A stretch of 64,000 nucleotides of DNA from an uncultured Spirochaetaceae bacterium (GTDB lineage: Bacteria > Spirochaetota > Spirochaetia > Sphaerochaetales > Sphaerochaetaceae), in contig CALXOH010000006.1 of the NCBI GenBank assembly GCA_944389975.1, forward strand, positions 1 through 64,000, in the 5' to 3' direction. Below the pieces are notes generated by a model. That model worked only from the letters and a program-made list of their open reading frames with translations, was not told where the DNA came from and did no database searches. The translations under genes and the position numbers were made by a program. Below, piece after piece: positions 8,149 through 29,383 of this stretch (position 1 is the first letter of the stretch; each line of letters begins with the position of its first letter).

Positions 8149-9267
8149 ATGGAAATCGACAAGGAAAAACGGGAATATATCATAAAGCGCAATTCGGCGA
8201 TCTCGATTCTGACCAACCTTCTGATGGGCGTTGCAAAAGTTGTGATAGGCATACTCTCAGGTTCGGTTGCAATCCTTTCAGACGGCATCAACAACCTCAG
8301 CGATCTGTTGTCGTCGTTTGTAACTGTACTTGGCTATCAGATTGCAAAAAGAAAGCCTACGCACTCACATCCGCTCGGATTCGGGCGTGTGGAATACATA
8401 TCTGCACTCTTTGTCGCATTCATCGTGCTGTATGCAGGATTTGAATTCCTGCTGGCATCGATCGAACAGATCAGGAAACCAAGCGAAGTCTCAGTCACCC
8501 CTGTCATGCTTTTGATCGTGCTCTCTTCGATAGCACTAAAACTCTTTCTTTGGAGACTGAACACAAAAAACGGGAAGGAGATAGGAAGCGATGCGTTGAA
8601 ACTAAGCGGTACTGATGCGCTCTCCGACGTGCTTTCAAGCTCCGTAACCCTTCTTTCAGCGCTCCTTTCTTACTTCATCCCCTACTCGTTCGATGGAATT
8701 GCAGGGCTCGTCGTATCCATTTTCGTCCTTTACACTGGATTTTCATCCGTGTTGGAAACGGTCAGTGCGATCGTCGGCGAAAGACCGGAGAAAGCAACAG
8801 TTGAGAGGATAAGGAAGATAATCTCCGGCTATCCACCGCTCAAAGGCGGGTACGACATACAAATACATAGTTACGGGCCGACCCGTCAGATCGGGACGTG
8901 CAACGTCGAAGTGCCGTCGAACGCGACAGGTGAAGAGATTTTCGATGCCATGACGGAAGCACAAGGTGCGATCTTATCCCAACTCGGGATATATTTCACT
9001 TTCGGAATGTACGCGGTAAACGATGCAAATCCTACTGTGCGGTTGATGAAAAACGAAGTGCTTAAAACGCTTAAAAGCGTTTCAGGAAGCGTCATCGGAA
9101 TCCATGCATTCCACGTACATCTTGAAGACTCCAGGGTACACTTCGATGTAGTCGTGGATTTCAATCTCGAGAACTTTGCAGAGTTCAGAAGCAGGGCTAC
9201 AAAGCGGCTTGAGACTGAATTTCCAAGCTACTCTTTCCAGTTTAACATTGATCCCGATTACTCTTGA
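8149..9267 (+). CDS. Cation diffusion facilitator (CDF) family metal transporter
   Basis: An inner-membrane divalent cation/proton antiporter of about 372 aa. Several membrane helices lie in residues 15-200. The metal-site motif SDGINNLSD (helix 2) and GTDALSDVLSS (helix 5) carry the expected Asp residues; HSHPLGFGR is the conserved cytoplasmic loop. A C-terminal cytoplasmic domain follows. The start is taken at ATG 8149 (MEIDKEK) because the upstream extension from 8077 is not family-like. Its last codons and TGA lie inside the 20-bp prophage att core, so integration left it intact. Confidence 0.88.
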   Translation: MEIDKEKREYIIKRNSAISILTNLLMGVAKVVIGILSGSVAILSDGINNLSDLLSSFVTVLGYQIAKRKPTHSHPLGFGRVEYISALFVAFIVLYAGFEFLLASIEQIRKPSEVSVTPVMLLIVLSSIALKLFLWRLNTKNGKEIGSDALKLSGTDALSDVLSSSVTLLSALLSYFIPYSFDGIAGLVVSIFVLYTGFSSVLETVSAIVGERPEKATVERIRKIISGYPPLKGGYDIQIHSYGPTRQIGTCNVEVPSNATGEEIFDAMTEAQGAILSQLGIYFTFGMYAVNDANPTVRLMKNEVLKTLKSVSGSVIGIHAFHVHLEDSRVHFDVVVDFNLENFAEFRSRATKRLETEFPSYSFQFNIDPDYS

Positions 9268-9270
9268 TCA
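9251..9270 (+). repeat. attL core, 20 bp
   Basis: ATCCCGATTACTCTTGATCA is identical to 45677-45696. It encodes the last residues and stop of the CDF gene. The next base differs (A here, C at attR), as does the preceding base, so the identity ends cleanly at 20 bp. Confidence 0.92.
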
Positions 9271-9398
9271 AATTTTTATCGTTTTTAATTGTTCTCAATT
9301 ATATTTAATTATTACTTATAATAAAAAGAGTTATTGAAATAAATTTTTCCGAATCGTTCTTAATTATTTTTATCCATTTTTAATTATTCTTCTCTCAA

Positions 9399-9429
9399 TG
9401 TGGGCAAAATGTGGGCAATTTGTGGGCAA
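9399..9429 (+). repeat. Integrase arm-type sites, left (three TGTGGGCAA copies)
   Basis: TGTGGGCAA occurs at 9399-9407, 9410-9418 and 9421-9429, with a period of exactly 11 bp, about one helical turn. The core GTGGGCAA recurs near attR at 45584 and 45595. Repeats on both arms, phased on one face of DNA, fit arm-binding sites for the tyrosine integrase. The 130 bases between attL and these sites are very AT-rich, which would help bending. Confidence 0.65.
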
Positions 9430-9466
9430 AAAAAACAATCCCCCTCAGTCGGTTGACCAAGGGGGA
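9428..9466 (-). terminator. Terminator of the phage late operon
   Basis: Minus-strand stem CCCCCT...AGGGGG (loop TGGTCAACCGACTG-like, 9440-9465) is followed by TTGTTTTTTTT. It comes straight after the last phage gene and keeps late transcription from running into the host CDF gene. Confidence 0.85.
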
Positions 9467-9476
9467 AAGGAGGTTG

Positions 9477-10052
9477 TCAGAACATCCATCCGATTCCTGC
9501 ACGGAACTGGAGTTTGTCAAGGTCAAACCGGGTTGTATCCTTGAGCATGTAGTCTGCGCCAAGTTCGGCCATCAGCGAGTTGCCGATGCGCGCTCCCAGC
9601 GTAAGACCAACGCCATACACAGGTTTCATCTTCTCAAAGCCAAGGATGCCGTCGACCATGACATACGCCTTGCTGCCGGCCTCGGCGCCGTCTTTCGCAA
9701 GCTTGTCTATCACTTCATCCTTTTCCTTCGAGGTCTCCCTCAAAGCTTCCATGTCGGCCCTTACCGCGACAAGGTCCTCATAGAGTATCCTTGCATCCTC
9801 TGCCGAGAGCCTTCTGCCCTCAGTCACCTTCTCCTCTATCCTTGACGTTTCCAAGGATATCGATGCTTCTGTCGAGCCTTCGCTCTGCATCCCTCCAGAG
9901 TCCGTCCTCGGCTCTTCTGCCTGGACTTCCTGAGCCAAGGTATCTGTAGGCTTTTCCGCCTGCGATCCTGTCACACGCCCTGGAAAAGCCCAAAGCAAGG
10001 AGGATGCCAGCAACAAGACCGACAAGCACATCACGAACTTTCTGCACATCAT
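9477..10052 (-). CDS. Exported protein with outer-membrane-like C-terminus, last gene of the late operon
   Basis: A 191-aa protein. It has a signal peptide (residues 1-22, cleavage probably after LLWA), a low-complexity region, a coiled coil at about 70-115, and a C-terminal beta-strand region YGVGLTLGARIG...FRAGIGWMF. The final Phe after alternating hydrophobics resembles an outer-membrane insertion signal. Its place after two small membrane proteins suggests a lysis role, such as a spanin-like envelope-disrupting protein, or lysogenic surface change. No spanin family was recognised. ATG overlaps the previous stop (ATGA). Confidence 0.5.
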   Translation of the reverse strand: MMCRKFVMCLSVLLLASSLLWAFPGRVTGSQAEKPTDTLAQEVQAEEPRTDSGGMQSEGSTEASISLETSRIEEKVTEGRRLSAEDARILYEDLVAVRADMEALRETSKEKDEVIDKLAKDGAEAGSKAYVMVDGILGFEKMKPVYGVGLTLGARIGNSLMAELGADYMLKDTTRFDLDKLQFRAGIGWMF

Positions 10053-10606
10053 TTTCCCTCCGTTATCTTCCTGATGTATTCACGGCCGCTTTCCGCAGCC
10101 TTCTTCTCTCCCGCCTTCTCGGCCTCTTCCACCGTCAAAGGCTGTCCGTCCTTGATCACAGTGAGCGGATGATCAAGATCAGGTGTTCCACCAAGCTTGT
10201 CATCGATATAGCGATAACGAAGCGTCACCTCGAGGCTCGACCTTACCCTGGCTTCGGCGACAGCCTTGCAGAACCGCGTGCCGAGAGCCATGAGGATGCC
10301 GATCGCCATCACGCAAAGCCAAAGGGAAACATAGCCCCAAGAGGTTGCAAGAACGGCCCCGATCCAGCCTCCGCAGGAAAGAAGCATGTAGATCTCGATC
10401 TGCCACATCTCAGGCGCATAGTCCTTGAGTACGAGATGGTAGACAAGCCTTGAAACGGTCACCCCGAGGCCTCCGAAGAAGACTCCCCAGAAAACCGCAT
10501 ACATGGCTCCCGTATCGAACACAAGCCCGGCTACAAGCGCTGCGACAATGCAGCAGATTATTCCGGGAATCCCGTAGATCAAAAGTTTTTTCTGCCAGAT
10601 CTTCAT
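10049..10606 (-). CDS. Phage membrane protein, about four helices, lysis cassette
   Basis: A 185-aa protein beginning MKIWQKKLLIYGIPG after AGGAGGCGGC. About four hydrophobic segments lie in residues 8-110, in two pairs, followed by a soluble charged C-terminal region of about 70 residues. No family recognised. It sits between the holin-like gene and the exported protein, with 4-base overlaps on both sides, so the three are translated as a block. Holin or antiholin is possible. Confidence 0.5.
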   Translation of the reverse strand: MKIWQKKLLIYGIPGIICCIVAALVAGLVFDTGAMYAVFWGVFFGGLGVTVSRLVYHLVLKDYAPEMWQIEIYMLLSCGGWIGAVLATSWGYVSLWLCVMAIGILMALGTRFCKAVAEARVRSSLEVTLRYRYIDDKLGGTPDLDHPLTVIKDGQPLTVEEAEKAGEKKAAESGREYIRKITEGK

Positions 10607-10953
10607 GCCGCCTCCTTCTGAAGTCTCTTCGCCCTGGCTTTCTTGAATATCCCGTGGGCGATGTCGTAGACGATGAACGAAAACCCCGTGTAGACGAGTC
10701 CGTTCCCGATGCCGTAGAGAAGCACCCTCGCCAGTCCCTTCCATCCTGTGACCTCGTACTGGAGCCAGCCGAAGAAGAACCCGACTGCAAGATACAAGGC
10801 AAGGAGGATGACGGGAAGCGGAGGAAGCCACCCCGGAAGCCTGGAGCGTTTTAACCAGTACCCGGCGATCATGATGACGGCGATCCATACGGCCATGATC
10901 GGATCAAGGTACGAGGCAAGAAGCTTCAGGACAGAGAATACAGGTGCACCCAT
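10603..10953 (-). CDS. Holin-like small membrane protein
   Basis: A 116-aa protein with about three to four membrane helices and a basic tail KKARAKRLQKEAA, typical of phage holins. The central LPGWLPPLPVILLALYLAVG segment resembles phage holin families found beside endolysins. I chose ATG 10953 because GAGGAGGG lies just upstream; the frame is open to 11067 but has no ribosome site there. Role in membrane permeabilisation is inferred from size, topology and position. The family was not identified with certainty. Confidence 0.55.
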   Translation of the reverse strand: MGAPVFSVLKLLASYLDPIMAVWIAVIMIAGYWLKRSRLPGWLPPLPVILLALYLAVGFFFGWLQYEVTGWKGLARVLLYGIGNGLVYTGFSFIVYDIAHGIFKKARAKRLQKEAA

Positions 10954-11004
10954 ATATCCCTCCTCTATCGCTATGCGTATCACGCCAAGGACGGCTGACG
11001 TACA

Positions 11005-11036
11005 TGACAAAAGAGGGGCGAAACGCCCCTGTGTCA
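11005..11036 (-). terminator. Hairpin between the fibre/invertase block and the lysis block
   Basis: AGGGGCG AAA CGCCCCT (11014-11030) is extended by outer TGACA/TGTCA pairs (11005-11009, 11032-11036). On the minus strand it is followed by CTTTTGTC, a weak T-tract, so it may end or attenuate transcription coming from the tail genes. It lies upstream of the holin-like gene. Confidence 0.45.
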
Positions 11037-11128
11037 TAGGAGTATCAATGTCGGTCTTGGCTTTCATGACTTTAGGATAGGTTCTAGGCTGTAAGCCTCA
11101 AAGCGAACCATTGCAGGAGGCGCAACAA

Positions 11129-11953
11129 ATGAAATCACTCAGATCATTCGCACGATGGCTGTCAACAAGAGGACTGAGCCAGAACACCGTAAAAAGCTAC
11201 GTACAGTCGGCAAAGCTGTATTCGAACCGGTACCCGACACTCTCGGAAGCCAACCTTCTCAAGTGGAAGGATCAGATGGCCGCAACGTACAAGCCAAAGA
11301 CGATCGCCATACGGATCAACGGCATCAACGCATACCTTACATTCTCCAAAGAGACATACAGGCTCAAGAACGTGAAGCTTCCAAGAGTGCATCATCTTGA
11401 GAAAGTAATATCGTTATCCGATTACAGCCGTCTGATGAAGGGATTGGCAAGGAAAGCCGAGGATGACCTTCTCTATCAGAAGTGGATGCTCCTTGTGAAG
11501 TTCATGGCCATGACGGGCGCAAGGGTTTCCGAAGTACTGCAGGTACAAGCTGAGCACATTGGGGAAAACAAGGTTCCAGTGCTGGCGAAAGGAGCAGTCT
11601 ACAGGACGATACTCATTCCGACAAGGCTATGCAGGGAGATCTCCACCTATCTTGAGAAAATCAGACAGGATGATGGTTATGTCTTCGGCAAGACGAAAGA
11701 CAAGCCATACTCGATCGGGACTGTGGAGGCAAGGCTGAAGAAGTTTGCAAAGGAGTTCCGTATTCCCAGGGAGGTGATGCACCCACACGCATTCAGACAT
11801 CTCTTCGGCAAGAACTTCATGCAGAGCAAGGGCGCTGACATTACAGTCCTTGCGGATCTATTGGGGCATGCATCGATAGAGACGACCCGCATCTACACGA
11901 GACGAAGCCAGGAAGAACAGCAGCAGGCCTTGGACAAGATCGTCACCTGGTAG
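11129..11953 (+). CDS. Tyrosine recombinase, predicted tail-fibre DNA invertase
   Basis: A 274-aa XerD-like recombinase. A SAM-like N-terminal domain occupies residues 1-90. The catalytic domain shows Arg in TGARVSEVL, Lys in VLAKGAVYR, HAFRH (His-x-x-Arg), the LGHASIETTRIYTR box with the Tyr nucleophile. ATG 11129 follows GCAGGAGG. It is the only plus-strand gene among the late genes apart from the cassettes. Its stop codon lies one base before the first of three 14-bp repeats that join alternative fibre ends. It is distinct from the prophage integrase at 44421, so its likely job is inversion of the adjacent cassettes. Confidence 0.85.
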   Translation: MKSLRSFARWLSTRGLSQNTVKSYVQSAKLYSNRYPTLSEANLLKWKDQMAATYKPKTIAIRINGINAYLTFSKETYRLKNVKLPRVHHLEKVISLSDYSRLMKGLARKAEDDLLYQKWMLLVKFMAMTGARVSEVLQVQAEHIGENKVPVLAKGAVYRTILIPTRLCREISTYLEKIRQDDGYVFGKTKDKPYSIGTVEARLKKFAKEFRIPREVMHPHAFRHLFGKNFMQSKGADITVLADLLGHASIETTRIYTRRSQEEQQQALDKIVTW

Positions 11954-11954
11954 A

Positions 11955-11968
11955 TAGTAGCGGTTACA
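11955..11968 (+). repeat. Crossover site S1 (plus orientation)
   Basis: TAGTAGCGGTTACA, identical to S2 at 12711 and to S3 on the minus strand at 13315. The core GTAGCGGTTAC is an imperfect palindrome (GTA-x-C-x-G-x-TAC), as expected for two recombinase arms. It encodes S-S-G-Y in the same frame at all three copies. Confidence 0.85.
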
Positions 11969-12222
11969 CGTACTTGCCTAACGGAGTGCTTATACAATGG
12001 GGTTCTGCATACATAGCTCAGAGAGATGGTACTTGTGTTAATAATTTCCCTCTTTCTTTTCCTCAAATATGTTGTTCCATGATTGCTGTTGCTACAGGAA
12101 CTAAAGGTGGTGATATAAACCATCTGAATTGCGTTTCCGTATATTCTACTTCGCGAACGGGATACAACATTACGCATTTTAGTAACCCGCGTACTTACGC
12201 TTGGATTGCCATCGGATATTGA
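11956..12222 (+). CDS. Silent tail-fibre C-terminal cassette C
   Basis: From the S1 site the frame reads SSGYTYLPNGVLIQWG and ends IAIGY at TGA 12220-12222. This is the 'LPNG-IQWG ... WIAIG' pattern of gp53-like tail-fibre C-terminal domains. It has no start of its own that makes sense of the domain, so it is not expressed as placed. Inversion between S1 and the fibre's site S3 would join it in frame to the fibre gene. About 87 residues after the shared SGY. Confidence 0.8.
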   Translation, partial: SSGYTYLPNGVLIQWGSAYIAQRDGTCVNNFPLSFPQICCSMIAVATGTKGGDINHLNCVSVYSTSRTGYNITHFSNPRTYAWIAIGY

Positions 12223-12236
12223 GGTATAATTTCTTT

Positions 12237-12713
12237 ATGGAAAACGAAGTGCAGACACCTGAATACATGTATTGGGATCCGGTCGAGGAAGCTTGCTATG
12301 CCGCTTTCCAGCTGGAGTTGCATAAAGACGATATCTTCACGTCTGAAGTGCGGTCAAGATTAAAGCCGATCTTGAAGGATGACTGGTTGGCTTTGATCGA
12401 ACTCAACGCAACACAAGGCAAGATAATCAAGAACAATCCGACAACAGATCTACCGATGACTACGGATCCGGAGCCGCTTTCGGAGAAAGAAGAACTTGAG
12501 ATGGAAAAACAGCAGATACAATCGGAACTTGAAGCTACAAATACTGAAACCATTCTCTATCTGCAGCAGCTCATGACACCGGCGATGATCCCGGGAGATG
12601 AAACATCCGAACCGATAATGACACCCGAGGAATATGCAGTGCTAAATGCCTCAAGGTTGCAGAAGGCAAACCGTCTGAAGGAGATCGAAACAGAATTGGC
12701 AGCCTTGGCATAG
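12237..12713 (+). CDS. Tail fibre assembly protein
   Basis: A 158-aa protein starting MENEVQTPEYMYW. The middle segment GKIIKNN...PMTTDPEPLSEKEELEME matches the usual 'GKvI..n..G.Pv..DPpP.t.eE' pattern of phage tail fibre assembly chaperones. A helical C-terminus follows. It starts 14 bases after cassette C and its TAG lies in the S2 site, so it belongs to the invertible DNA. As placed it points against the fibre gene. When S1 and S3 recombine it would follow fibre plus cassette C in one transcript. A TATAAT just upstream (12225-12230) could be a -10 box. Confidence 0.65.
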   Translation: MENEVQTPEYMYWDPVEEACYAAFQLELHKDDIFTSEVRSRLKPILKDDWLALIELNATQGKIIKNNPTTDLPMTTDPEPLSEKEELEMEKQQIQSELEATNTETILYLQQLMTPAMIPGDETSEPIMTPEEYAVLNASRLQKANRLKEIETELAALA

Positions 12714-12724
12714 TAGCGGTTACA
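12711..12724 (+). repeat. Crossover site S2 (plus orientation)
   Basis: TAGTAGCGGTTACA. It is direct with S1, so S1 x S2 would excise cassette C and the assembly gene (756 bp), and inverted to S3, so S2 x S3 flips about 0.6 kb. Its first TAG is the stop of the assembly gene. Confidence 0.85.
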
Positions 12725-13011
12725 CCATATTACCCAATGGCATGATGATCCAATGGGGATACATAAATGCTAATTCCTCATCAGGTGAGTATGATGTCAG
12801 GAAGGTGACTTTTTCCCCTTCGTTCAGCAGTACACCTTATTTCGGTATAGCTGTTCCAATTATTTCTGGTTACCGTGAAGAGAATGCATATGGATACCTT
12901 TCTACCAGTAAGACAGCTCAAGGAACAGGCACGGCAATTTCTTCCAGTTACATGTGTTTAACTACTTACAGAAATTTCAAGTTACTTTGGATAGCTATAG
13001 GTAAAGCGTGA
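12712..13011 (+). CDS. Silent tail-fibre C-terminal cassette B
   Basis: In frame from S2 it reads SSGYTILPNGMMIQWG and ends LLWIAIGKA at TGA 13009-13011. It lies tail to tail with the expressed fibre end, one base apart, in the near-palindrome GCGTGACTCACGC. An S2 x S3 inversion would exchange this end for the expressed one with no change of frame. It shares the first 14 and last 6 residues in pattern with the expressed cassette but differs in between. Confidence 0.82.
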   Translation, partial: SSGYTILPNGMMIQWGYINANSSSGEYDVRKVTFSPSFSSTPYFGIAVPIISGYREENAYGYLSTSKTAQGTGTAISSSYMCLTTYRNFKLLWIAIGKA

Positions 13012-13012
13012 C

Positions 13013-16000
13013 TCACGCCTTGCCTATGGCGATTATCAAAGCCCCGGTAAAGTCTTTGTGAGCAGCAAACACACAATATGATTTCGATAGGGCGATACCT
13101 GAATGTTGGGTCGCTTTTGTTCCGTCATACAGATACCCATAGAAATAATTATCTCGTGTAACGGTTGGGTTTATAATCGTCACATCGCAATAATACGGAG
13201 TTGCGCTAAATGAAACTGGAAACGTGCAAGTTGTTGGGTCATAGTCGCCTCCGTTCCAGTTTCCAATATTCGTCATCTTCTTCCATTGCAGTAGCAGGTT
13301 TCCGGGCAATGTTATGTAACCGCTACTACCCAAACTGCTGGCTCCCAGCTTCAGAGTGTCCAAAGTGGCATTGTCCGCAAACAAATTCCGGAACGGCTTG
13401 TCAGATTTTCCTAGGTCAAACGTCGATGCCTCCTTCGGTATGACGTTCATGACTTCGATCTGTCCCTCGGACGCCAGGAGATACAGCTTGAATGCAAAGT
13501 CAACATATATACTCGAGGCCCTCGACACCTGTACCTGTCTGCCTTCGCATGCAAACACGTAGTCGTCGGAAACTTTGGTCATTGATATCAGCCTGTTGCT
13601 GGTATGCACCGCCTCAGAGTTCACCGTCAGCGTGGACACCTCGGTGCTGTCCGTACTGAATACCGCTTGGTCAGTTATCCCCGAGGAGTTCAAGAACTCG
13701 CAGATCGTCCTTCCGGAAACACGAGTGAGGTTGCTTGCCGACACAAATACATTCGGAACATTCAGCGATGTCTCCGTCTCCCTGGAATAATCGGTGGAGG
13801 AAGAGGCGGCGAGGGAGCCGGAGTTGTTTGATTGTACGTAATAAATCCTGTTCTCCGCCCGTGGTTCATCTGCAAAGAAGTAGATACGGATATTCTTTAC
13901 GTTGACTTCGCTGTAGGAATAAACATAACGGTCGCCATCATTGTATGATCTTCCTGTCATAGTTTGACTCCAGGTGAAACTCTTTGAAGTTCCCCATTCA
14001 GTCGAAGATATGGAACCTGAAGTGCTTTTTCCTGAAGAAGAATAGATCATGTAGTAACGAGCCCCAACAGGTACAGTAACATTACGCGTTACGCTTTTTA
14101 TTCTCTTGACTCCTTCTTCATAGTTGGGATTACCAGACCCTGTCGACCAAGATGATGCTGCAATATACACGTCAGTCATCGTGCCATAGCCTATGATGGG
14201 AGCTGAGAGATTCTCCTCGCTCGACGAGTACCCCGGAGCGCACCTCAGCTTGGCACTGCCTGTGAAATTGTCCCAGTGCCAGAAGGACGAGTTATACATC
14301 ATCAACTCAATGCTCCAGCCCGGAGGAAGAATGTACATGCCCTTGTCCGTGCCGCCATGGTCGTTGTATGTGCTCAAGACCTCGGCGTTGGAAGAGTCGC
14401 GTATTATTACGGCCTTCTTAGTGAAGCTACCGGAGAGCGAGATCTCATACTCCACGAAGACAGGGAAACTGTAGTTGTTCGTCTTCTTTGCAATAGCCGT
14501 AACTGTGTTGGTGCTCGTATGGCCGTATTTTACATAAATACCAGTACGCTCATACGCTCCGAACCTTATCGAGCCGGCCGTAGTGACTTCCGAAGTAGTC
14601 GGCCCGTATGCGTTGTACGATGGCGGATAGTTTATCGCAAACTGGGTGCAAGCCACGCCGACAACCTTCATCGATGCACCTGCAGGCATGCTCATTACAT
14701 AATAGCCACCGCCATTTGTAAGCTGGGATTCCGATGCCGTCTTCAGCGCCTCGTACGCTGTAACACGGTACCAGAGATCATTTGCGAAGGTCTTCTCCAA
14801 TATCGATAATGGATGTCCGCTCGCGTCTACGAAAGACTGTGCCGCAATTGTCTTCAATGTCTCGTGCGTGATGGACGAAGCCATGATGTCGCCTGTCGCC
14901 ACAAGGTTCTCGAACTTCGCGGGGCTTCCGTCCGTGGGAAGCTCCCATGAGTGCGTTACGCCGTTTTCGTCCACTCCGCTTGCCTTCATACCTTTGGTGC
15001 TGATGTCAAAGCCGTTGCCGTTCTCATCCCTGCCTTCGATTTTATTCACAGAAAGCTTTCCCGAGATGTTTGCATCTGTAACGATGAGCTTGTCGGTCAT
15101 GAGCGTAGACACAAGCAGGTTCTGCAGCGCGACAATCGCTTCGGATTCCTCCTTGTTCTCATAGAGGCCCTTGAGATCGGAGAACGCCGCGAAAAGATGC
15201 GCGCTCGTGTTTGCCATGACCCATTCGCCATCACGGTACTCGTAGATGTTGCCGGTCAGGTAGTCATCATTCGTCTCTCCCGTATGCACACCGTAGTCTC
15301 CGGGGGCAAAGCACCCCTGCAGTCCCCTGGGAGAGTTCACAAGATCCTCGATGTCAGTGTTGAAATCCACCATGCCGATGTATACGGGGGCGGGAACTGC
15401 ACCTTTACGGACTATGATCTGCTGGTATGCCGTCACCGATGACGATCCATCAGAGGCTGTCGCGGTGGCGGTCACCACGATCGGGGTGAATGATGAAAGC
15501 ACGCTTTCTGCAACGCTCGTTATATCAAGACCGTACCTGTATGCATGGCTTGAGTCAGCCGTCAACGTGCCTGCTGATGTCGTGACGGAAAGCGTTGAGG
15601 CATTTATACCGCTGAATGTCACGTCAAGTGTAATCGTCTGACTCTCTGGGTCCTTCCGACCGAAGTAATCGAGCGTGAACTCCGAACGATCGGAGGATAT
15701 GCCGATCGAGATTGCCACGGCATCCGCACCCGGTTCCCCCTGGCTTCCCTGCGATCCTTGTGGCCCGGTTTCCCCCTGGGGACCTTGTTCGCCTTGCGGA
15801 CCCTGCGCCCCGGTCTCGCCCTGCGGGCCTTGGGCCCCGGTATCTCCTTTGTCGCCTTTGTCGCCTTTGTCTCCCTTGTCTCCGGTCATTCTTACGACAG
15901 TCCAGGGACTCTCTGATGAGACACGTATCCTGAGCCATACATATTCGCCCTCTGCCGGAGTCGGCTCCGTGGTCGTCCAGACCGCATCGGCTGCCGGTGC

Positions 16001-17788
16001 ATCAGTACCTGTCGTCACAGTCCATTCGAATTCGGCCGTCTCAGGTGCAATGGATACCATAGATACAGTCACTTCCCTGCTGTATAGCTTCCCTTCGTGG
16101 CTTATGGCAGCAGATATCGTGTTGGCTCCGGCGACAAGCTGAGTGTTCGTCAGGGTAAGGGTATTGCCGTGTTCGCCAGTAATCACGGAGCCATTGAGAT
16201 ACCATGTGGGCTCGCATTCGTATTCGCTTATCGCCTCTCCTCGAACCTTCAACACTACAGTCGATGCTCCTTCCTGGCTGAATATTACAGTCCTGTCCGC
16301 TTCAAGCACGAAGAAATTAGGAGACGATGACGGGAAGGAATGTGACCCGTCCACAGATACAACAGGTTTTGAGATGGTAACTTCCCCATATCCTTCGGCC
16401 TTGTAGCTGTAGAGTCCCGTATCATCGCTTGCTGTACGGGAGATGATGCGCACAACCGCATTAAGTCCCATTACGGACTGCTCGTCAAGCGTGACTATGC
16501 TGCCCGGCTCAAGGACCTCGAAGCTTTCGAACTGGTAGCTCCATATACCCTTGTTGTTGCGGTTGTAGATCGTTGTCGCCAAAGTAAGCGCGTCATCATA
16601 GTTGAAGATGAACTTCGAATCATAGGACTCCGGATTGGTTCCAGCAGGACCCACCCCGCCGTCAGAAGGCAGGAGGAATGAGGCATTCGCAAAAACTTCC
16701 ATCCGGATGCGTGGAAGCGAGAAGACGAAAAGGCCCTTCAGAGGCATCCTGTACTGGAGCCACGCATAGCCGCCTGTCTCGTCACAGTCGGAGACATGAC
16801 CCTTCACTTCCGGGGAGCCTGCGGAGACCATCGTATAGTCGACCTTGAAGTCCGAGAGATAGAGCCCTTCCATATCCTCGTATTCTCTGCTGTTCTTGAG
16901 TTCATCAAGCCCTTCTCCCCATTTCATCCTCGTGCCGACATCGCTTGGGTTGATGTCGCTGGGGAAGTGCCTCGGAGCCATGTTGTCAGTCTCACTCAGT
17001 GGATCAGACGAAAAGTGCAGCTCGCCCTCCCTTGAATAAAGCCTGACGTTCGGTACCGATATCTCCTTTGCGAATTTGACAAGCGCGCCGTCCGAGTCGT
17101 CATCGTTTCTCGTTGCCCTCAATGTATTGCGGAATACGGACACGGTCTTGCTGCTTGTCATGCCATTGGCCGTGCTGTAAAGTTTCAGTTTGCCTTCTTT
17201 CGTGAACGTATAGTCCCACTGGTACTCATAGAGGATCGAGGCAAGGATCTCGTCCAGATATTCCTCCGCTGCAAGCTCGCAGCGCGATATCGTCTTTGAA
17301 ATGGTCGGCAAGGATTCATCGAATACGGTGATTCCTCCCATTTGGCATATCGAGTGCACTATCGAATGCGAGGTGTCTGCAGGGTCGCATATCTTGTAGT
17401 TGTGCCACATGGCACTCATCACCGCGTTGCTCTCAGCCACCGAGGAGGTATCCTCATACACGTACTTGTGCAGCACTTCCGTATAATCGAGTATCTCCAA
17501 GGAAAGAGAGCTCAGGTTCCTTGCCTCCGCGGAAAGTGTCGCATACGGCCTGATCACTCCGGTGAAGAGGACTTCAGAGTCCTTCAGAAGCTGCGCCTTT
17601 ATCAGGTCATTCGAGCCAAGGATGCTTTCGGCAAGTTCCCCGGCCTTGACGTTGATTCTGCAGCTCTGCGTCACGTGCTTTCCCTTCTCTCCCACCGAAT
17701 AAGCCATGGAAAATCCAGAAGATAGGATTATGTCGTTGTATGTTTCGTAGCCCGATCCGAAATCGAGCTTGAGAATATAGCTGCTCAT
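13013..17788 (-). CDS. Tail tip / tail fibre protein with collagen-like stalk and switchable C-terminus
   Basis: A 1591-aa structural protein. The N-terminal ~480 residues resemble a tail-tip (baseplate) domain. Residues about 500-630 have Ig-like strands. A collagen-like Gly-x-y stretch ([11 protein letters not shown], then [10 protein letters not shown] repeats) runs about 633-688. A long fibre shaft follows. The final ~100 residues after SSGY (about 1491) are cassette [10 protein letters not shown]...IAIGKA, which probably binds the receptor. ATG 17788 is chosen because GGAGG lies 5 bases upstream; it overlaps the tape-measure stop. The 3' end is the expressed slot of the inversion system. 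Confidence 0.85.
13315..13328 (-). repeat. Crossover site S3 within the fibre gene
   Basis: Minus-strand TAGTAGCGGTTACA inside the fibre reading frame (G-S-S-G-Y). It marks the junction between the constant fibre (upstream) and variable cassette A (13013-13314). Confidence 0.85.
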
Positions 17789-20058
17789 GCGTACCTCCAT
17801 TTGGGAAGGGCACCAGTCCTCTGCGCCCTCTCGATTCCCTTATACACGTCCTCCGCAAGCTGCTCGCCGTTATAGGCGGTGCCTACGCTGATGTTGATCA
17901 CTATCGTGCCGTCTCCGCTTCTCTGGGAGCCAAGGCCGACCTTCTGCAGGTTCGAATCGGTAAGCGGCAACACCATTTCCTGATAACCGGCCTCCCCTAT
18001 GAGCGCGTGTGTCGGCCCCGTGGTGATTCCTCCTGCTGCCATCGGCGTGTACTGCTGGCTTGCAATCGTTGCGACCTGGGCGGCCGTGATTCCTGCAGAT
18101 ACAGCGGTAAGCGCAGTAGCCACCATCCAGTTGTTTTCCGACCATATACGGGTTATGGCCAAGGCGCCGTTCACAAGGGCGTTTGCGATGTTGTTCGCCT
18201 TGTCGGCCTCGAACTGCTTCTTCTTCAGCTCGTCACGCTTCTTCTGAAGGCTCTCCTCTTCTTCCTGCGCGGCCTGTTTTGAGGCCATCTCCTCCTCATC
18301 CAGTTCTTCCATGGCCGATACATATTCGTCCTGGCTTACGAGCCCTGCGGCAAGCTGCGCATTCAGGCTTTCGCGCATCCTCGTCTGCTTCTCGTCAAGA
18401 TCGGAAAGGTACTCATCCCACTTCGAAGTACACTCATCAAGTGCCTGTTCAACTGCATTAACCTCGTTTTCCATCAGCTGGGAAAATAGATCGGTAAAGG
18501 ATGAAAGGGCATCCTGAGCATAATCGACCGCCTCGTTGATAGAGGGCATCATGTCCTTCAACGACTGCTGCCATGCGGGAACCACTTCCTCCGTTGCGTC
18601 CTTGAGCTCAAGCATCTTCTCCCTCTCGTCTTCCAATGACGCGATGATCTCGTTTATATACGGCACCTGATCGGCCGTGGCTTCCTTCATCATCGCCTTG
18701 GCTTCTTCAAGTTCCTTCGAGATCTCATCGAGCTGAAATGTCCTTGAAAGGGAAGAGTTTTCCTCGATGTATGCACCTACATCCGGGCCGGTTTGAGTTG
18801 AAGAAGAAAGATAACCATCGTATTCCTCGGCCAGTGCACTTGCATAGCGCCTGCTGTATGAGTCGCCGCTTTCAGCGCTCCTCGACGCAGTATCGTAGAG
18901 GTTCCGTATGTATTCTCCAGGGTCTTCCATTCCTGATATCTTCTCGGCAACCGATTCCATGGCTTTGTTGACCCTGTCGATGGTATTCAGTTCAGGAATG
19001 AGATAAGCTTCGACAAGTTCTTGTTCGTAAGCGGCTATTCCTTTCCGAGTTGCTGGAGTGGAAGGATCAAAGGCGGCTTTATCTTCGTCAGAGAGATTGT
19101 AATATCTGGAGCCAAGAAGCATGTTCTCAATATCGCTTTCCGAAAGAGTCGAATAATCGAAAGATGCTCGGCCTTCATTACCCATCCTTGCAAAATCCAC
19201 AAGGGATCGTTGGCCAGATGCTTTTCTGTTGCTTTCCTCAACCCAGTCGGAAATATCCGTCAGCTTGTCATAAAGAAAATCCAGCGCCGGCGATATTCTG
19301 TCCAAAAGGCCTTGGCCCAAACCTTCCTTGATATCACTCCACACGTTCGAAATCTGACGAAGTTTACCTGTATCGGTATCTGCTATGGCCTCGGCCATGC
19401 CGCCGTATGTATTCGACACCTGCTCCAAAAGAAGCTTCTGTGCCTTGTATATGTCGTTCTGATCCTGTGCTCTTTCTATGTTCTTCTTCTGTTCTTCAGT
19501 AAGCTGGATCCCAGCTTCCTTGAGGCTTTCAATTTCCCCTGCGGGGTCTGCAAGGGCCTGAGCCAGACGCTGAGCCGCTCCTGTGAGATCTTCCCCGGTG
19601 GCTGCAGCCATATCGAGCACCGCCCTCGTGGCTTCGGGCATCACGTCACGGCCTATCATCCTGACGCTCAGAAGCATCTGTTCTGCGGCAATTATTTCCT
19701 GATTGGAAAAGGTTGTAACCTGAGAAAGGGAATCAGCGTACTTGAAAAGCTCTCCTGCAGACATCCCTACCGCGTTCTGTGTGGCTTTGAGCGTTGTCTG
19801 AAGCTTACGCTCTACTATTTCCTGTGCTGAGTAAGATTCGGTAAGGTTGCCAAAAATACTAAATACTGTTTTTGATATGCCAACAACATTATTAATTGCT
19901 GTTGTAATAGCGGCAACCGAAGCAGAAAAAGCAGTAAAAGATTTTTTACTTTCCTCTGTCTCTTTCTGCATTTTATCCAAACGCTGGACTAATGCATCAA
20001 TACCTTGTACTGCTTTTTGTACGTCCGCAGCTATTTCAATTTGAATGTTCGATGCCAT
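17785..20058 (-). CDS. Tail tape measure protein
   Basis: A 757-aa protein that sets tail length and is threaded through the tail tube. It starts MASNIQIEIAADVQKAVQGID and has a helical N-terminus, a TMP core at about 80-270 (ATGEDLTGAAQRLAQALADP), coiled coils at about 440-640, hydrophobic segments near 655-690, and a C-terminal soluble part. At 757 aa it predicts a tail of roughly 110 nm by the usual rule of about 0.15 nm per residue. It follows the G/GT chaperone genes, as normal. Confidence 0.88.
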   Translation of the reverse strand: MASNIQIEIAADVQKAVQGIDALVQRLDKMQKETEESKKSFTAFSASVAAITTAINNVVGISKTVFSIFGNLTESYSAQEIVERKLQTTLKATQNAVGMSAGELFKYADSLSQVTTFSNQEIIAAEQMLLSVRMIGRDVMPEATRAVLDMAAATGEDLTGAAQRLAQALADPAGEIESLKEAGIQLTEEQKKNIERAQDQNDIYKAQKLLLEQVSNTYGGMAEAIADTDTGKLRQISNVWSDIKEGLGQGLLDRISPALDFLYDKLTDISDWVEESNRKASGQRSLVDFARMGNEGRASFDYSTLSESDIENMLLGSRYYNLSDEDKAAFDPSTPATRKGIAAYEQELVEAYLIPELNTIDRVNKAMESVAEKISGMEDPGEYIRNLYDTASRSAESGDSYSRRYASALAEEYDGYLSSSTQTGPDVGAYIEENSSLSRTFQLDEISKELEEAKAMMKEATADQVPYINEIIASLEDEREKMLELKDATEEVVPAWQQSLKDMMPSINEAVDYAQDALSSFTDLFSQLMENEVNAVEQALDECTSKWDEYLSDLDEKQTRMRESLNAQLAAGLVSQDEYVSAMEELDEEEMASKQAAQEEEESLQKKRDELKKKQFEADKANNIANALVNGALAITRIWSENNWMVATALTAVSAGITAAQVATIASQQYTPMAAGGITTGPTHALIGEAGYQEMVLPLTDSNLQKVGLGSQRSGDGTIVINISVGTAYNGEQLAEDVYKGIERAQRTGALPKWRYA

Positions 20059-20103
20059 GTTTTTCCTTTATCGAAAACAATTAACAACGACAAACAAATA
20101 TTA

Positions 20104-20223
20104 TCAAACAAACAAATAAGGGAGAATAATAAGCGAGAAAGGAATTACTATACAAGCAAGAATGAAACCTATAGCAAATCTTGCCCCTTTTTCAAATCCA
20201 TCCATTTCCTTCCATTTCTTCAT
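20104..20223 (-). CDS. Possible 39-aa membrane peptide between tail chaperone and tape measure
   Basis: ATG 20223 opens a 39-codon frame: MKKWKEMDGFEKGARFAIGF then a long hydrophobic helix ending SLIILPYLFV. One membrane helix after a basic amphipathic start. The ribosome site is weak (AAGGC). The gap 20059-20254 is more AT-rich than its neighbours. No family known; could be chance. Confidence 0.4.
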   Translation of the reverse strand: MKKWKEMDGFEKGARFAIGFILACIVIPFSLIILPYLFV

Positions 20224-20254
20224 GCCTTAATTCTATGTTTTACAACATTTGCTG

Positions 20255-20835
20255 TCAAATCCTCACCTCCGGAAAGTAGAACTTGTCCAAAGGCCTCAAT
20301 ACATCCACCACTTGGACAAGCTTCTCCGGATTCATGCCCCACGGCCCGTAGGGCATCCCCATCTCCTTCCACCTTCTGAAAAACACCAGGGCCGAAAGTG
20401 CCTCCTCGTTACGAAGAATGGATGGAATGTCGTACACCTTCACCCACTCCCCGGTCTTCAGCATCGCCTCCCTGTCCTCCGGGCCCTCGGGCTCGTACTT
20501 CGAGTCATAGCCTTCGGCCCATAGAGAGAACAGGGTGACGATCAGTTTTTTTCATCCGGCCTCAGTACCGCGGAATCCACGATCGCAAGATCCACCTCAT
20601 TGACAAGCGAATACGTACCGGGGGAGTTGATCACGCTCTCGGCATCCACTCCGTTCTCCCAGCCTGCAACGCCTGCCGACTTCACCTTTGTGACAAAACG
20701 CTTGAAAAGCTTCGCATTCGTGGAGTCCTTGAGTTCAGTCTCGGCTTCCGCCGCCGTAGGTACGCTATAGGTAACCTCCACTGTTTCCCCCATGAAGGAA
20801 ACAGTCATCGTCTTTTCCCTTTCAAGTGTGATCAT
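20255..20835 (-). CDS. Tail assembly chaperone GT fusion, made by -1 frameshift
   Basis: The zero-frame product (20542-20835) is a 97-aa chaperone G ending RPDEKN. At the A AAA AAC slippery site (20545-20551), two codons before its TGA, a -1 shift opens a frame that reads LIVTLFSLWAEGYDSKYEP and runs to 20255. The fused G-T product would be about 192 aa. The T part (KTGEWVKVYDIPSILRN...) has no good start of its own. This G/GT arrangement upstream of the tape measure is established for siphophages, where the ratio matters for tail assembly. Confidence 0.8.
20542..20835 (-). CDS. Tail assembly chaperone G (zero-frame product)
   Basis: A 97-aa protein, MITLEREKTMTVSFMGETVEV at the N-terminus, acidic and helical toward the end. 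It overlaps the tail tube stop by 4 bases. Small size, position between tail tube and tape measure, and the slippery sequence at the end identify it, not sequence similarity. Confidence 0.7.
   Translation of the reverse strand: MITLEREKTMTVSFMGETVEVTYSVPTAAEAETELKDSTNAKLFKRFVTKVKSAGVAGWENGVDAESVINSPGTYSLVNEVDLAIVDSAVLRPDEKN
20545..20551 (-). promoter_or_regulatory. Slippery heptamer A AAA AAC for -1 ribosomal frameshift
   Basis: Frame is GAT GAA AAA AAC TGA, so both tRNAs re-pair after slipping back one base. The codon after the shift is CTG. The stop codon abuts the heptamer, which favours pausing. Confidence 0.75.
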
Positions 20836-21239
20836 GCGCTCTCCTTTTCAGCCAGGGTTCCAGTTCCCTGGAAATTGAACGAGATCGCGACCTTGTCACC
20901 ATGGCTTCCCGTGATGCTCGCACTCGTCATGATCGCCATTCCCGTAAGCGTGAGATCAGTCCCCACCTTCATCTCCAAAGTCACGGGCGTGTCCGTTGGC
21001 GTCAGAAAGCCATCGATCACGGACTTCTGCGCCGCATCCGCATAGTCGAGGGTTCCCGATACGCTTCCGCTCCAGTCGAGCGCGGCGGCTATGAACTCCT
21101 TCCATGCCTTGCCGATCTGGCTTGTCTCCGCCGATCCCTGGTTGACCGTCAGGGAAAAGTTGTCGATGTATCCCATCACCTGCGCGGCGGATGATCCTCC
21201 GATCTTGAAGCTTCCGTTCTTTCCTGCCATTACTGCCAT
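20832..21239 (-). CDS. Major tail tube protein
   Basis: A 135-aa beta-rich protein (MAVMAGKNGSFKIGGSSAAQVMGYIDNF). It resembles TP901-1/lambda-V-type tail tube proteins: short strands such as WSGSVSGTLDYAD and SITGSHGDKVAISFNFQGTGTL. Size and its place before the G/GT chaperones fit. Good AGGAGA site before the start. Its second Met (position 4) could be the true start. Confidence 0.75.
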   Translation of the reverse strand: MAVMAGKNGSFKIGGSSAAQVMGYIDNFSLTVNQGSAETSQIGKAWKEFIAAALDWSGSVSGTLDYADAAQKSVIDGFLTPTDTPVTLEMKVGTDLTLTGMAIMTSASITGSHGDKVAISFNFQGTGTLAEKESA

Positions 21240-21261
21240 CTAATCATCTCCTTTCTCTCAG

Positions 21262-21858
21262 TCATAGAGAGTCATCTTCTTCGCTTCCTTCTCCGTCATC
21301 GGCACCAGCGGCCTCTGGCACTTCGGGCATGTCGTCTCCTTCATGTCCCTCGTCCTGTAGCCGCACCTCCGACAACCCATCACTTCCTTCGTCTTCTCCT
21401 GCATAGACGTATCCTCCCAGATCCACGTCGCACGAAAGCTCTGCCTGGATCACATACACGTTGCCGGTTGAATCACTTGAGAACCTCACGCCAAGGGCCG
21501 TGTCTATCGCAGCTCCCCCGAGGCTCCAGTCGGAGCGGATCACGTCCTCAAGGATGTCCTCCCATACCCTGCCTTGCTTCTCCAGGTGAGCTACATCATC
21601 CCCCGAAAGTCCGATGCCGATTATCACCTGGTATGTCGTGGAGTACGTATCCGTGAGTGTTTTCCCGTTCACCATCACGATGCACCCCGGATACTCGGTA
21701 AGCCCTGAAAGCACTCCTGTGTATCCGTCCTGCCAGAGCGCGATGTCCGCCAAGCCAAGGGAAGAATCCTCCTCGTTGGCTTTCGCCACACGCTCGGCGA
21801 ATGCCTTCTTCAAGTAAGTCTCCAAAGCCTTTATGAATCTTTCGCTTGAGTTCCTCAC
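21262..21858 (-). CDS. Tail terminator/completion-type protein
   Basis: A 198-aa protein whose first ~130 residues look like a tail terminator (alternating strands around YPGCIVMVNGKTLTD and a VWEDILEDVIR helix). The last ~40 residues are very acidic. Assigned by position just before the tail tube gene; the family is not recognised with certainty. It overlaps the upstream gene by 4 bases. Confidence 0.5.
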   Translation of the reverse strand: MRNSSERFIKALETYLKKAFAERVAKANEEDSSLGLADIALWQDGYTGVLSGLTEYPGCIVMVNGKTLTDTYSTTYQVIIGIGLSGDDVAHLEKQGRVWEDILEDVIRSDWSLGGAAIDTALGVRFSSDSTGNVYVIQAELSCDVDLGGYVYAGEDEGSDGLSEVRLQDEGHEGDDMPEVPEAAGADDGEGSEEDDSL

Positions 21859-22304
21859 GGTCTCTCCTTCACCGCTTCCGCGAGTGTCTTGTTACCCATC
21901 TTCAGGATGTTTTCCTTTATGTCACGGGAGAACCTTGCCTCTGCTCCGAACGCACGGAAGGCAGGCATCATGAACTCGTGCTCGGTGCCAGTCCACCTGG
22001 CTATGTAGTTCTGCACGCCATCAATACCCTTTCCGGGCCTGATCACCTGTCTGTTGAACTTCTTGCCTTTGAACTTCCCCATCGTCCAAGTGCCGATATG
22101 GTCTCTCGTTTCGCCAGTGACAACGTTTATCTTCTGCCCTGAAACATAGTTTGACTTGATGAAGGTTACGAGCTTGTCGGAATCCGCACCGACAGCGTAC
22201 CTCACCCAAGCCTGCAATCGGTTCTCGCCGATCACTTCGAACGCGCCTTTGACGGCATCCACCGTACCGTTGTCAGTCATGAAGAGGAAATCGGAATCAC
22301 TCAT
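21855..22304 (-). CDS. HK97 gp10-like head-tail joining protein
   Basis: A 149-aa basic protein (GKFKGKKFNRQVIRPGKG in the middle, a helical C-terminus). In HK97-like phages this slot between the gp6-like connector and the tail terminator holds the gp10-type neck protein. The call rests on gene order and size. 4-base overlaps on both sides. Confidence 0.5.
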   Translation of the reverse strand: MSDSDFLFMTDNGTVDAVKGAFEVIGENRLQAWVRYAVGADSDKLVTFIKSNYVSGQKINVVTGETRDHIGTWTMGKFKGKKFNRQVIRPGKGIDGVQNYIARWTGTEHEFMMPAFRAFGAEARFSRDIKENILKMGNKTLAEAVKERP

Positions 22305-22816
22305 AGCGCCTTGTTCCTTCTGAATGGCTCCAACATCTTCTGTACGGCAAGCGTTGGTACCGATTGCTCTATCGTCTCGGTGCCTCCCTCTGTCGTCCTT
22401 GAGTTGATGCCCAAGAGTTTCCCGGAAGAGAGCTTTACAAGGTGCTGTACAGTGAAGGCGATGGCCATCCTGATCACCTCCGGCACTTCGCCTTCCTTCC
22501 AGCCCGCAGTGTATGTAACCACAACCTCAGAGCCATCGGTGGATGACGGCACGACATAGCTTGCACGCTTTTCAAAACGGAAAGCCACATCCTTGCCGTC
22601 AAGCTTGACACCCTTGACCTCCAGAACGGGGGTATGTGTGAGAACATACCCGGAGTCACCCCCGGGAAAATGCTCTTCTACTTCGCCCCGCTCGATCTCC
22701 GCATAGGAAAGAACCTTTTCCTCTGCGACCTTCAAAAGAGAGGAGTAATAACCTTCTTTGGGTTTTTGGAATTCAAAACCGAAATCATTCCTGAGGTCTT
22801 CAAGCGTCAGAATCAT
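22301..22816 (-). CDS. Head-tail connector, gp6-like
   Basis: A 171-aa protein starting MILTLEDLRNDFGFEFQ. The all-helical pattern with PEVIRMAIAFTVQHLVKLSSG and a start like 'LEDLR' resembles phage gp6/gp15 connector proteins that bridge portal and tail. It follows the capsid gene, as usual. Confidence 0.6.
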   Translation of the reverse strand: MILTLEDLRNDFGFEFQKPKEGYYSSLLKVAEEKVLSYAEIERGEVEEHFPGGDSGYVLTHTPVLEVKGVKLDGKDVAFRFEKRASYVVPSSTDGSEVVVTYTAGWKEGEVPEVIRMAIAFTVQHLVKLSSGKLLGINSRTTEGGTETIEQSVPTLAVQKMLEPFRRNKAL

Positions 22817-22827
22817 CTTTCACCTCA

Positions 22828-23955
22828 TTAAGCCCCAGCCTTCATCTTTAGGACGGCAAAGGCATCGGCTAGGGCCAAGTCCCCGTCGATCCTCTCCTGT
22901 CCGCGGATTCCGACCTGACCTGTTGCAGCATAAAGCTCGTTGAGCGTCTTAAGCTCGATACTCTTCCTGTCACAGATGTGGTAGTAAGAGAAATCGCCTA
23001 CGATCATTGCAACAGCATTGGCAGCCAGTGCGGGAAATTCATCGGAGACCACCACGGGGATTCCCATGATCTGAGTGATCGTCGACTGCTGCGGGAACAT
23101 GTATGTCGAGCCATCCTTGAACTCATGGATGATGTCAAGAAGCGTCTGGGAGCAAACGATATGTGCGTTCGTCCTGTATGCCTTGAGCTTCTGGATCGTC
23201 GACTTGACCTCGGACCATGTAACAGTGGTTGCGGATGCCGCGGTGACGATGTTGCCGGATGCGGCATTTGTCGCAATTCCCCTGATCTTGGTCTTGCTGG
23301 AAGACGTGCCGGTTCCAAAGAGGATCTCCTTGTCTTCCTTCTTTGCAAAGGCCTTCGCGAACTTGTCCTCGATGTAACCCATGACATCGACTCCAAGATC
23401 TGCGATATACTCCTCGGAGACCTTGGTAAGCGCGCCGAGCTTCAAGGCCTGAAGGCCGATCGGCTTGATGGAAGGCGTCGTCTCCCCGAAGGTTCCGGCT
23501 TCTTCGATGTAGTCAACGACCACATCATCACCTTCGACCATGACAGTGTACTCGCCGTTCGCCTGGTGAACCGTGCAGAGTCCCCTGATGCGGGCAATTT
23601 TCTCCTTCTTCATCTGGATGTTCTGAGCGCATTCACTCGGAAGGAGTCCCGAGAAAGTCGTTCCCTTCGAAACAGCCTCCACAAGGTTTTTCCCGAACTG
23701 TTCCCTTTCGGAAAGAGCCTTCGGCTTGTCCTTCTGGATTCCCTTGGGGATCCCTCCCTCTTCAAGGTCCTCTTTCTCCTCGAGCGCCTCCACTGTCTCG
23801 ATCTCTTCCATGACCTCTTCTGCCTGCTTTTTAAGCATTTCATACTTCTTGATGTCATCGTCAGATGCCGTCTCAAGCATCTTCTCGAAGGCTTCCTCGA
23901 CTTTCTTCTCGATAGCCGCGAGCCTTTTCTCAAGTGTCTCTTTCTTCGTTTTCAT
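22828..23955 (-). CDS. Major capsid protein, HK97 fold
   Basis: A 375-aa protein. The first ~100 residues are a coiled-coil, Lys/Glu-rich delta domain (scaffold part that the protease removes). The mature part begins around REQFGKNLVEAVSKG and ends GQVGIRGQERIDGDLALADAFAVLKMKAG, a typical HK97 gp5-type C-terminus. It follows a protease and a portal gene. Self-assembly into the prohead is known for the family. Confidence 0.9.
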   Translation of the reverse strand: MKTKKETLEKRLAAIEKKVEEAFEKMLETASDDDIKKYEMLKKQAEEVMEEIETVEALEEKEDLEEGGIPKGIQKDKPKALSEREQFGKNLVEAVSKGTTFSGLLPSECAQNIQMKKEKIARIRGLCTVHQANGEYTVMVEGDDVVVDYIEEAGTFGETTPSIKPIGLQALKLGALTKVSEEYIADLGVDVMGYIEDKFAKAFAKKEDKEILFGTGTSSSKTKIRGIATNAASGNIVTAASATTVTWSEVKSTIQKLKAYRTNAHIVCSQTLLDIIHEFKDGSTYMFPQQSTITQIMGIPVVVSDEFPALAANAVAMIVGDFSYYHICDRKSIELKTLNELYAATGQVGIRGQERIDGDLALADAFAVLKMKAGA

Positions 23956-24575: not shown

Positions 24576-24584
24576 TATTCCTCC

Positions 24585-26543: not shown

Positions 26544-26547
26544 CTAT

Positions 26548-28254: not shown

Positions 28255-28594
28255 CGAAAAGCCCTCCCATGGTCTCATCCTCTTCACTCTCGTCAACCTT
28301 CGTTATGGCAAGCAGCTTCCTCGCCTTGTACGTCACACCGAACGCGGACATCACGGAGATGTAAGATGCAAGGGCAGCCTTCCTGTCTGAAAACTTGTTC
28401 CTGTCGTCCTGGAATATCGCATAGAGCTCACAGGCAGCTTCTATCACCGGCACGTCGACGAAACAAACTACCTCGTCCTTGATCAACGGCGGCATGATCT
28501 TCTCGAAGTGTTTCTTCGCAGCTCCGCTGAGCCAGTCAGCCGGCTGCGGAGTCTTCTGAAGTATCTCGTTCTCTTTAGCCCGAGGCATTTTCAA
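28241..28594 (-). CDS. Terminase small subunit, P27-like
   Basis: A 117-aa helical protein (PADWLSGAAKKHFEKIMPPL, then a helix pair) matching the P27 family that recognises the packaging site and loads the large subunit. It is placed between the HNH nuclease and TerL, the usual order for HNH-dependent packaging systems. 4-base overlap with the HNH gene. Confidence 0.82.
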   Translation of the reverse strand: MKMPRAKENEILQKTPQPADWLSGAAKKHFEKIMPPLIKDEVVCFVDVPVIEAACELYAIFQDDRNKFSDRKAALASYISVMSAFGVTYKARKLLAITKVDESEEDETMGGLFDDKS

Positions 28595-29079: not shown

Positions 29080-29256
29080 GACACTGATGGTGAATCCAAG
29101 AGGAGGAAGAGATAAAGGCAAGTATTGCGATCATCGCAACGGCATGGATATAATCAGAAATCGGCGCTGTCATAACGGATAGGCGGTTGGTCTCCAGGGT
29201 TAACACACTGGGGCCTGTATAGGCTTCATGGATTCTTCGTGATGAAAGGAGCTTGT

Positions 29257-29373: not shown

Positions 29374-29383
29374 ATACTCTTTA

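Follow-up and report, generated by a model that had tools for sequence, protein, structure and literature searches.

A probable tail-fibre tip shufflon with a tyrosine recombinase in a prophage of an uncultured spirochaete

The DNA analysed here (the window) comprises 64,000 nucleotides of contig CALXOH010000006.1 from an uncultured Spirochaetaceae bacterium (assembly GCA_944389975.1). It carries a prophage in which a tyrosine recombinase gene, three copies of a short repeat and three alternative tail-fibre ends lie side by side, and in all probability this locus is a shufflon by which the recombinase swaps the fibre tip. The arm-less enzyme would act on a short asymmetric site and invert the stretch between two copies in opposite orientation; one copy (S3) is located within the fibre gene, where the tip domain begins. 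Inversion between S2 and S3 would exchange tip 3 for tip 2; that between S1 and S3 would bring in tip 1 instead and line up an assembly-like gene behind the fibre. The expected outcome is a mixed virion population differing in receptor-binding tips. Sites, reading frames, tip families and a recombinase with its catalytic residues are all present, and a relative carries the S1 x S3 inverted configuration. The neighbouring recombinase appears to be the enzyme that performs the inversion, presumably still today. Tip exchange probably changes the bacteria to which the phage attaches, and we infer phase variation within one population and a change of host range.

The 14-bp sequence TAGTAGCGGTTACA occurs in three exact copies in the window (Table 1), at precisely the bases and on the strands given by an earlier first-pass annotation. 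Allowing up to two mismatches, 0.12 matches were expected by chance, and none of 100 shuffled sequences reached three; no further copy with one mismatch or fewer was found in the rest of the genome, which totals 1.95 Mb. The only inverted pairs are S1/S3 and S2/S3, S1 and S2 being direct repeats. Each copy opens the same frame (SSGY..) at site position 2, followed by tips of 88, 99 and 104 residues, respectively. An asymmetric short repeat thus stands, in both orientations and in one frame, at the start of each variable C-terminus. Since every site opens its tip at the same codon phase, all joins would stay in frame, which agrees with the earlier proposals that each site leads into a different fibre C-terminus and that S2 x S3 or S1 x S3 inversion would fuse a new tip in frame.

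Such a repeat might also be no more than coding sequence conserved for the SSGY motif with which PF21882 domains open, the tip genes being rearranged by ordinary homologous recombination. Every tip of the family does have the conserved G-Y motif, and in one cassette slot the window and the related genome G013 (see below) differ as though a replacement had occurred (G, C and L numbers designate genomes, contigs and loci). We regard this explanation as very improbable, however. AGT AGC GGT TA(C/T) is identical at the DNA level in eight copies from two genomes, save for the last Tyr base in two of them, whereas the conserved codons that follow (LPNG) vary synonymously. Identity starts upstream of the tip, at the stop of another gene or after the recombinase stop, and therefore outside the coding constraint on the fibre. 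In further arrays the same protein motif goes with different DNA cores (TGACGGGTAT, TGAGGGGTAT), and 14 bases are short for RecA.

The recombinase reading frame extends from an ATG at 11129 to a TAG at 11951-11953, and its coordinates bear out the observation that this gene ends one base ahead of S1. Searches for homologues in 197 genomes of relatives, 393 of the phylum and 139 of the family yielded two groups of array-associated recombinases, class A, which includes the window, and class B. R132, K154, H220, R223, H247 and Y256, which we take to be the catalytic residues from what is known of the family, are invariant across five class-A homologues. Pfam returned PF00589 and a sub-threshold SAM-like match and no Arm domain; Pfam and PHROGs together identified a tyrosine recombinase only, with no resolvase/invertase domain of the serine type. 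Among solved structures the closest are XerC/XerD/XerA-like, and the match to IntI4 (2a3v) is weak and partial. This likeness, together with the PHROGs label of integrase, could be taken to identify the enzyme as the integrase of the phage or as a dimer resolvase of the Xer type, acting on an att (attachment) or dif-like site without any switch. That reading has hardly any probability: a canonical Arm-domain integrase is encoded at the other prophage end beside attR, and att is a different 20-bp sequence; the three sites lie within the phage and none elsewhere in the chromosome; and a recombinase of this kind stands at the cassettes in class-A and class-B arrays alike. As the integrase has an Arm domain and the enzyme at 11129 has none, the latter is a second, different tyrosine recombinase.

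The inversion itself is visible in a relative. The nearest recombinase homologue, 92% identical, is encoded on CASFDA010000013.1 of an uncultured Spirochaetales metagenome-assembled genome (MAG), G013. Both prophages are collinear (89% left of S1 and 93% right of S3). Between these flanks, window 11955-12759 (cassette 1 and the assembly-like gene) aligns in inverted order with G013 13030 to 12223, and window 12986-13330 (the expressed tip) with G013 11169 to 10825, likewise inverted. The breakpoints coincide with S1 and S3. With the order of segments inverted, the counterpart of cassette 1, silent here, forms the fibre end in G013, and the tip expressed here is a silent cassette next to the recombinase in G013. 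Of the five G013 sites (+ - - - -), two end in TATG. Two extra cassettes stand between mutually direct sites in G013; both are missing from the window, with junctions at the sites. The comparison of orientation in related genomes, suggested by the first-pass annotation, therefore yielded an S1 x S3 inversion with its endpoints at the sites, and instead of the diverged sites and decayed cassettes that were named there as evidence against a switch, G013 retains its sites and open, selected cassettes.

Between the window and G013, dN/dS is lowest for cassette 3 (0.04) and the assembly-like gene (0.05), followed by cassette 1 (0.13), the terminal stretch of the constant fibre part (0.22) and the recombinase (0.26). 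These ratios indicate that cassettes 1 and 3 are under purifying selection, though each is unused in one of the two genomes. Synonymous divergence within window 11956-13327 is uneven (0.12 for the assembly-like gene, 0.46 for cassette 3 and 1.7 for cassette 1, compared with 0.19 for the recombinase), which suggests separate histories of the cassettes. Cassette 2 is not orthologous between the two (41% amino acid identity).

Several points weigh against a switch that operates today. The inversion is known between two different MAGs and not within one population, and it could be old; as the compared MAGs belong to different species clusters, the comparison tells that inversion has happened and does not give its frequency. 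The action of the recombinase on the sites is deduced from adjacency and co-variation. No second contig with an alternative junction was found in the genome, and neither exact site junction occurred on any viral contig searched. The locus might also be a genuine but frozen shufflon, in which the G013 inversion is ancient and the recombinase now inactive. The evidence is indeed a two-genome difference, the window was assembled in one orientation within a 200-kb contig, and some relatives are degraded, with stops in the recombinases of G039:C31 and G109. We nevertheless give a frozen state a small, though real, chance: the catalytic residues are all kept, the recombinase is under purifying selection, the sites are still exact and the silent cassettes are still selected. 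In addition, at 7 of 17 class-A/B loci the contig breaks off less than 3.1 kb downstream of the recombinase, in or just before the array, and at two it does so within 0.8 kb upstream. Such an excess is expected if orientations are mixed in the population, although repeats would also cause it. For example, in G046 one contig ends inside a cassette and another begins inside a fibre-fused cassette.

The exchanged parts have the character of fibre ends. Both silent tips match Pfam PF21882 (Gp53-like_C), at 8.8e-15 and 2.8e-8, and the expressed tip aligns with both. It is attached to the fibre, as had been noted; the reading frame, however, encodes 1595 residues from the first ATG, and the 1591 residues reported earlier count from the next Met. 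The class-A tip profile matches solved tail-fibre ends (4mtm, 6.6e-8; R1 pyocin fibre, 6cxb/6cl5), and the structure predicted for the window tip (pLDDT 84) is nearest to the R1 pyocin fibre (E 8e-4). The class-B profile matches the short tail fibre 9cuy (1.7e-8); the predicted class-B fold (pLDDT 58) was too poor for use. Alignments show conserved ends and a hypervariable middle in tips of both classes. Because the matched solved fibre ends are receptor-binding, the tips presumably bind receptors as well.

Between cassette 1 and S2 lies a reading frame of about 157 codons, with its stop codon at 12711-12713, that was absent from the first-pass annotation. One small gene of a common family is present in every class-A array (window and G041 copy, L031, 47% identical). 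The window copy matches the tail-fibre assembly PHROG weakly (0.006), its relatives more strongly (down to 2e-5), and four class-B arrays hold a gene of another family, whose matches to PHROGs of tail-fibre assembly are clearer (down to 3e-10). In the window this gene is on the recombinase strand, whereas the G013 copy, 99% identical at the amino acid level, follows the fibre tip on the opposite strand. S1 x S3 inversion thus shifts the gene into or out of line with the fibre.

Table 1. Features of the tip array and of the prophage that carries it (window positions).
Feature	Position	Strand	Evidence
Arm-less tyrosine recombinase, 274 aa, proposed DNA invertase	11129..11953	+	PF00589 1.4e-23; catalytic residues
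Crossover site S1 (TAGTAGCGGTTACA)	11955..11968	+	One base past recombinase stop codon; inversion endpoint in G013
Silent tip cassette 1, 88 aa + stop, PF21882	11956..12222	+	Pfam match; counterpart is the expressed tip in G013
Tail-fibre-assembly-like gene inside invertible array	12240..12713	+	phrog_188 weak (0.0057); stop codon overlaps S2
Crossover site S2	12711..12724	+	Exact site match; overlapped by stop codon of assembly-like gene
Silent tip cassette 2, 99 aa + stop, PF21882	12712..13011	+	Pfam match; frame at S2
Currently expressed tip, cassette 3, 104 aa + stop	13013..13327	-	96% identical to silent cassette beside recombinase in G013
Crossover site S3, within fibre gene	13315..13328	-	Exact site match; inversion endpoint in G013
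Tail-fibre gene, 1595 aa, constant part (collagen-like stretch) and exchangeable tip	13013..17800	-	ORF, Pfam, PHROGs
Separate phage integrase with Arm DNA-binding domain	44421..45578	+	PF14657, PF14659, PF00589; phrog_1
Host prophage	9251..45696		20-bp direct repeat ATCCCGATTACTCTTGATCA (att); terminase, portal, major head, tape measure, replication genes

The prophage of about 36 kb is bounded by perfect 20-bp att repeats at 9251 and 45677. On the left the repeat runs into the 3′ end of a cation-efflux gene, and on the right it is located just past the integrase. Terminase, portal, major head protein, tail tube, tape measure, fibre, replication and annealing proteins are encoded in between. 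The target of the array is a fibre gene that adjoins the tape measure and bears Gp53-like_C tips, and not PilV. No Methylase_S (hsdS) match was obtained on this contig, the only matches in the genome being on C3 and C15. A scan for promoters and terminators gave nothing beyond the level of shuffled sequence. Between a repressor-like gene and the integrase (42863-43564) lies a gene for a DUF3800 protein, with a full-length match (4e-44) to a PHROG without assigned function.

Homologous arrays recur in the genus. Class A consists of the window, G013, a second array on C18 of the same genome, G041 and G046, with PF21882-like tips; class B consists of G011, G017, G039, G045, G058 and G522, plus fragments, with non-PF21882 tips. 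The class-B tips of the genus start with R-[DN]-I and finish in a conserved hydrophobic strand, and the G017 tip is preceded by the phage tail-collar domain PF07484. Class A, class B and a third clade with hsdS-associated members each received 100/100 support, in a tree that leaves their branching order unsettled; class A was confined to this genus in the phylum search. Eleven arrays of the genus and a sister genus have a common layout (recombinase stop, site, cassettes), with the recombinase at the cassettes in both classes. All but two of the 78 sites in these arrays lead into a tip of 68 residues or more, in a frame fixed for each array (76/78); one exception is cut by a contig end and the other is truncated. 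Cassettes of L038 had seemed broken in a naive longest-frame reading, but with the frame set at the site 11 of 11 were open. The identical stretch at the sites covers about 9-14 bp, with variable sequence on both flanks; where an array is intact, its first site either overlaps the stop codon of the recombinase or sits a few bases from it. The cores differ between recombinase lineages: TAGTAGCGGTTA, TGACGGGTAT and TGAGGGGTAT in class A, and GAGACATTA, GAGGCATT, AGGGACATT and AGGAACATTA in class B.

The C18 array (G000:C18, ~50671-53330; L028:8672-11323) is a second shufflon in the same genome, with a recombinase 58% identical to that of the window. It has five TGACGGGTAT-core sites in mixed orientation and five tips, and lies near tail, tape-measure-like and another integrase-like gene. 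In L089 (G016:C12, 9207-14183) a related fibre stops just ahead of the tip position; neither recombinase nor array is present and other genes fill the slot, which shows the array as a module that can be replaced. A transposase-like reading frame (zinc-ribbon, IS1595-like by eye) is located within the 11-site class-B array of L091 (G522:C1, 12418-12918). No repeat array was found at the recombinases of L024-L026 (viral contigs) or of L034 and L035 (genus loci). A search of viral contigs with the class-A recombinase profile gave no match, and hence no independent virion copy.

Cassettes also seem to move between arrays. Arrays with different cores hold homologous tips (64-68% amino acid identity), as do those of G013 and G041 (65-68%). 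In L041 (G011:C35, oriented; 11918-12420) two near-identical site-cassette units are adjacent, a recent duplication bounded by sites. This pattern suggests that whole site-cassette units are gained and lost, via the recombinase or by homologous exchange. The homologous cassettes at different sites, the near-duplicate neighbouring units and the two G013 cassettes missing from the window with junctions at sites might even point to an integron-like system, in which the recombinase chiefly inserts and deletes tip cassettes and inversion is secondary. We think this unlikely, since mixed orientations in most arrays and the precise G013 inversion fit inversion, a cassette-borne hairpin of the attC type is not implied (none was searched for), and cassettes could be gained through homologous exchange. 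A broader idea leaves the shufflon in place: the recombinase family might flip cassettes and also add and delete them, and the prophages of the genus might share one pool of receptor-binding tips, with matching assembly genes, across arrays with different cores. This is conceivable, yet we hold it to be doubtful; if true, the pooled tips and assembly genes would form an integron-like repertoire for phage host range.

The type of system is already known, and what is new is its occurrence in Spirochaetota. In 2018 the Rin shufflon was described from Bifidobacterium prophages, as the first case of a tyrosine-family invertase encoded by a phage; it combines an 11-bp repeat (rix), a constant part of the receptor-binding protein (RBP), variable ends of 95-100 residues and inversions seen in reads (PMC6109161). 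A similar tyrosine-recombinase RBP shufflon has been reported in clade-1 prophages of Eggerthella lenta (PMC8778435). The contrast drawn in the first-pass annotation, with serine enzymes for phage fibre switches and tyrosine enzymes for plasmid shufflons, is outdated in view of these Bifidobacterium (PMC6109161) and Eggerthella (PMC8778435) prophages. Rin and the window share a prophage-borne, arm-less XerD-like tyrosine recombinase distinct from the integrase, a constant fibre or RBP gene on one flank and the recombinase on the other, short asymmetric repeats (11 bp in Rin, 10-14 bp here) before each variable C-terminus (~70-105 residues), and inversions between related prophages with endpoints at the repeats (here S1 x S3 in G013). 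The window array thus works like Rin in every testable feature, the likeness of the recombinases being taken at superfamily level; the best phage matches of the window enzyme are phages other than Rin carriers. Unlike Rin, the window belongs to the phylum Spirochaetota, has other site sequences, a first site abutting or overlapping the recombinase stop, and an assembly-like gene inside the array. Tips here are Gp53-like_C (class A) or post-collar (class B), those of Rin lactococcal-type RBP or H-type lectin; and Rin inversion is backed by reads, that of the window array by assembled sequence.

The Rci/pilV shufflon of IncI plasmids likewise uses a tyrosine recombinase and several inverted cassettes to exchange an adhesin C-terminus; its target, however, is the minor pilin PilV and not a phage tail fibre, and its site sequence is different. 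Gin, Cin and Min (Mu, P1, p15B) also provide alternative fibre ends by inversion together with an assembly gene, which in the S-U / S'-U' arrangement of Mu travels with the tips, but they are serine recombinases. HsdS invertons have homologous recombinases among several hsdS (PF01420) genes in two relatives of the same class, G142 and G162 (L032, L033), and on the faecal contig L048, which had come up as the first faecal phage match and turned out to be an hsdS locus. This placement suggests that recombinases of a single family operate switches of restriction specificity as well as of tail fibres. In the hsdS loci the DNA-specificity domain is exchanged instead of a fibre tip, and the recombinases form a separate clade (100/100). 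No report of a tip shufflon in a spirochaete phage was found in the open-access literature, most subscription journals being outside this coverage. Previously described from two actinobacterial gut hosts, tyrosine-recombinase tip shufflons now appear as a recurrent prophage module in a genus of gut spirochaetes, where two unrelated kinds of tip and two clades of recombinase occur and the site cores are specific to the lineage. This recurrence with varied tips, clades and cores opens three questions to comparison: what makes a simple arm-less tyrosine recombinase prefer inverted to direct sites, how its specificity for the site evolves, and how phages exchange tips, assembly genes and recombinases with one another. 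The arrays, with up to about eleven tips each, would also constitute a natural set of receptor-binding variants for hosts known only from metagenomes.

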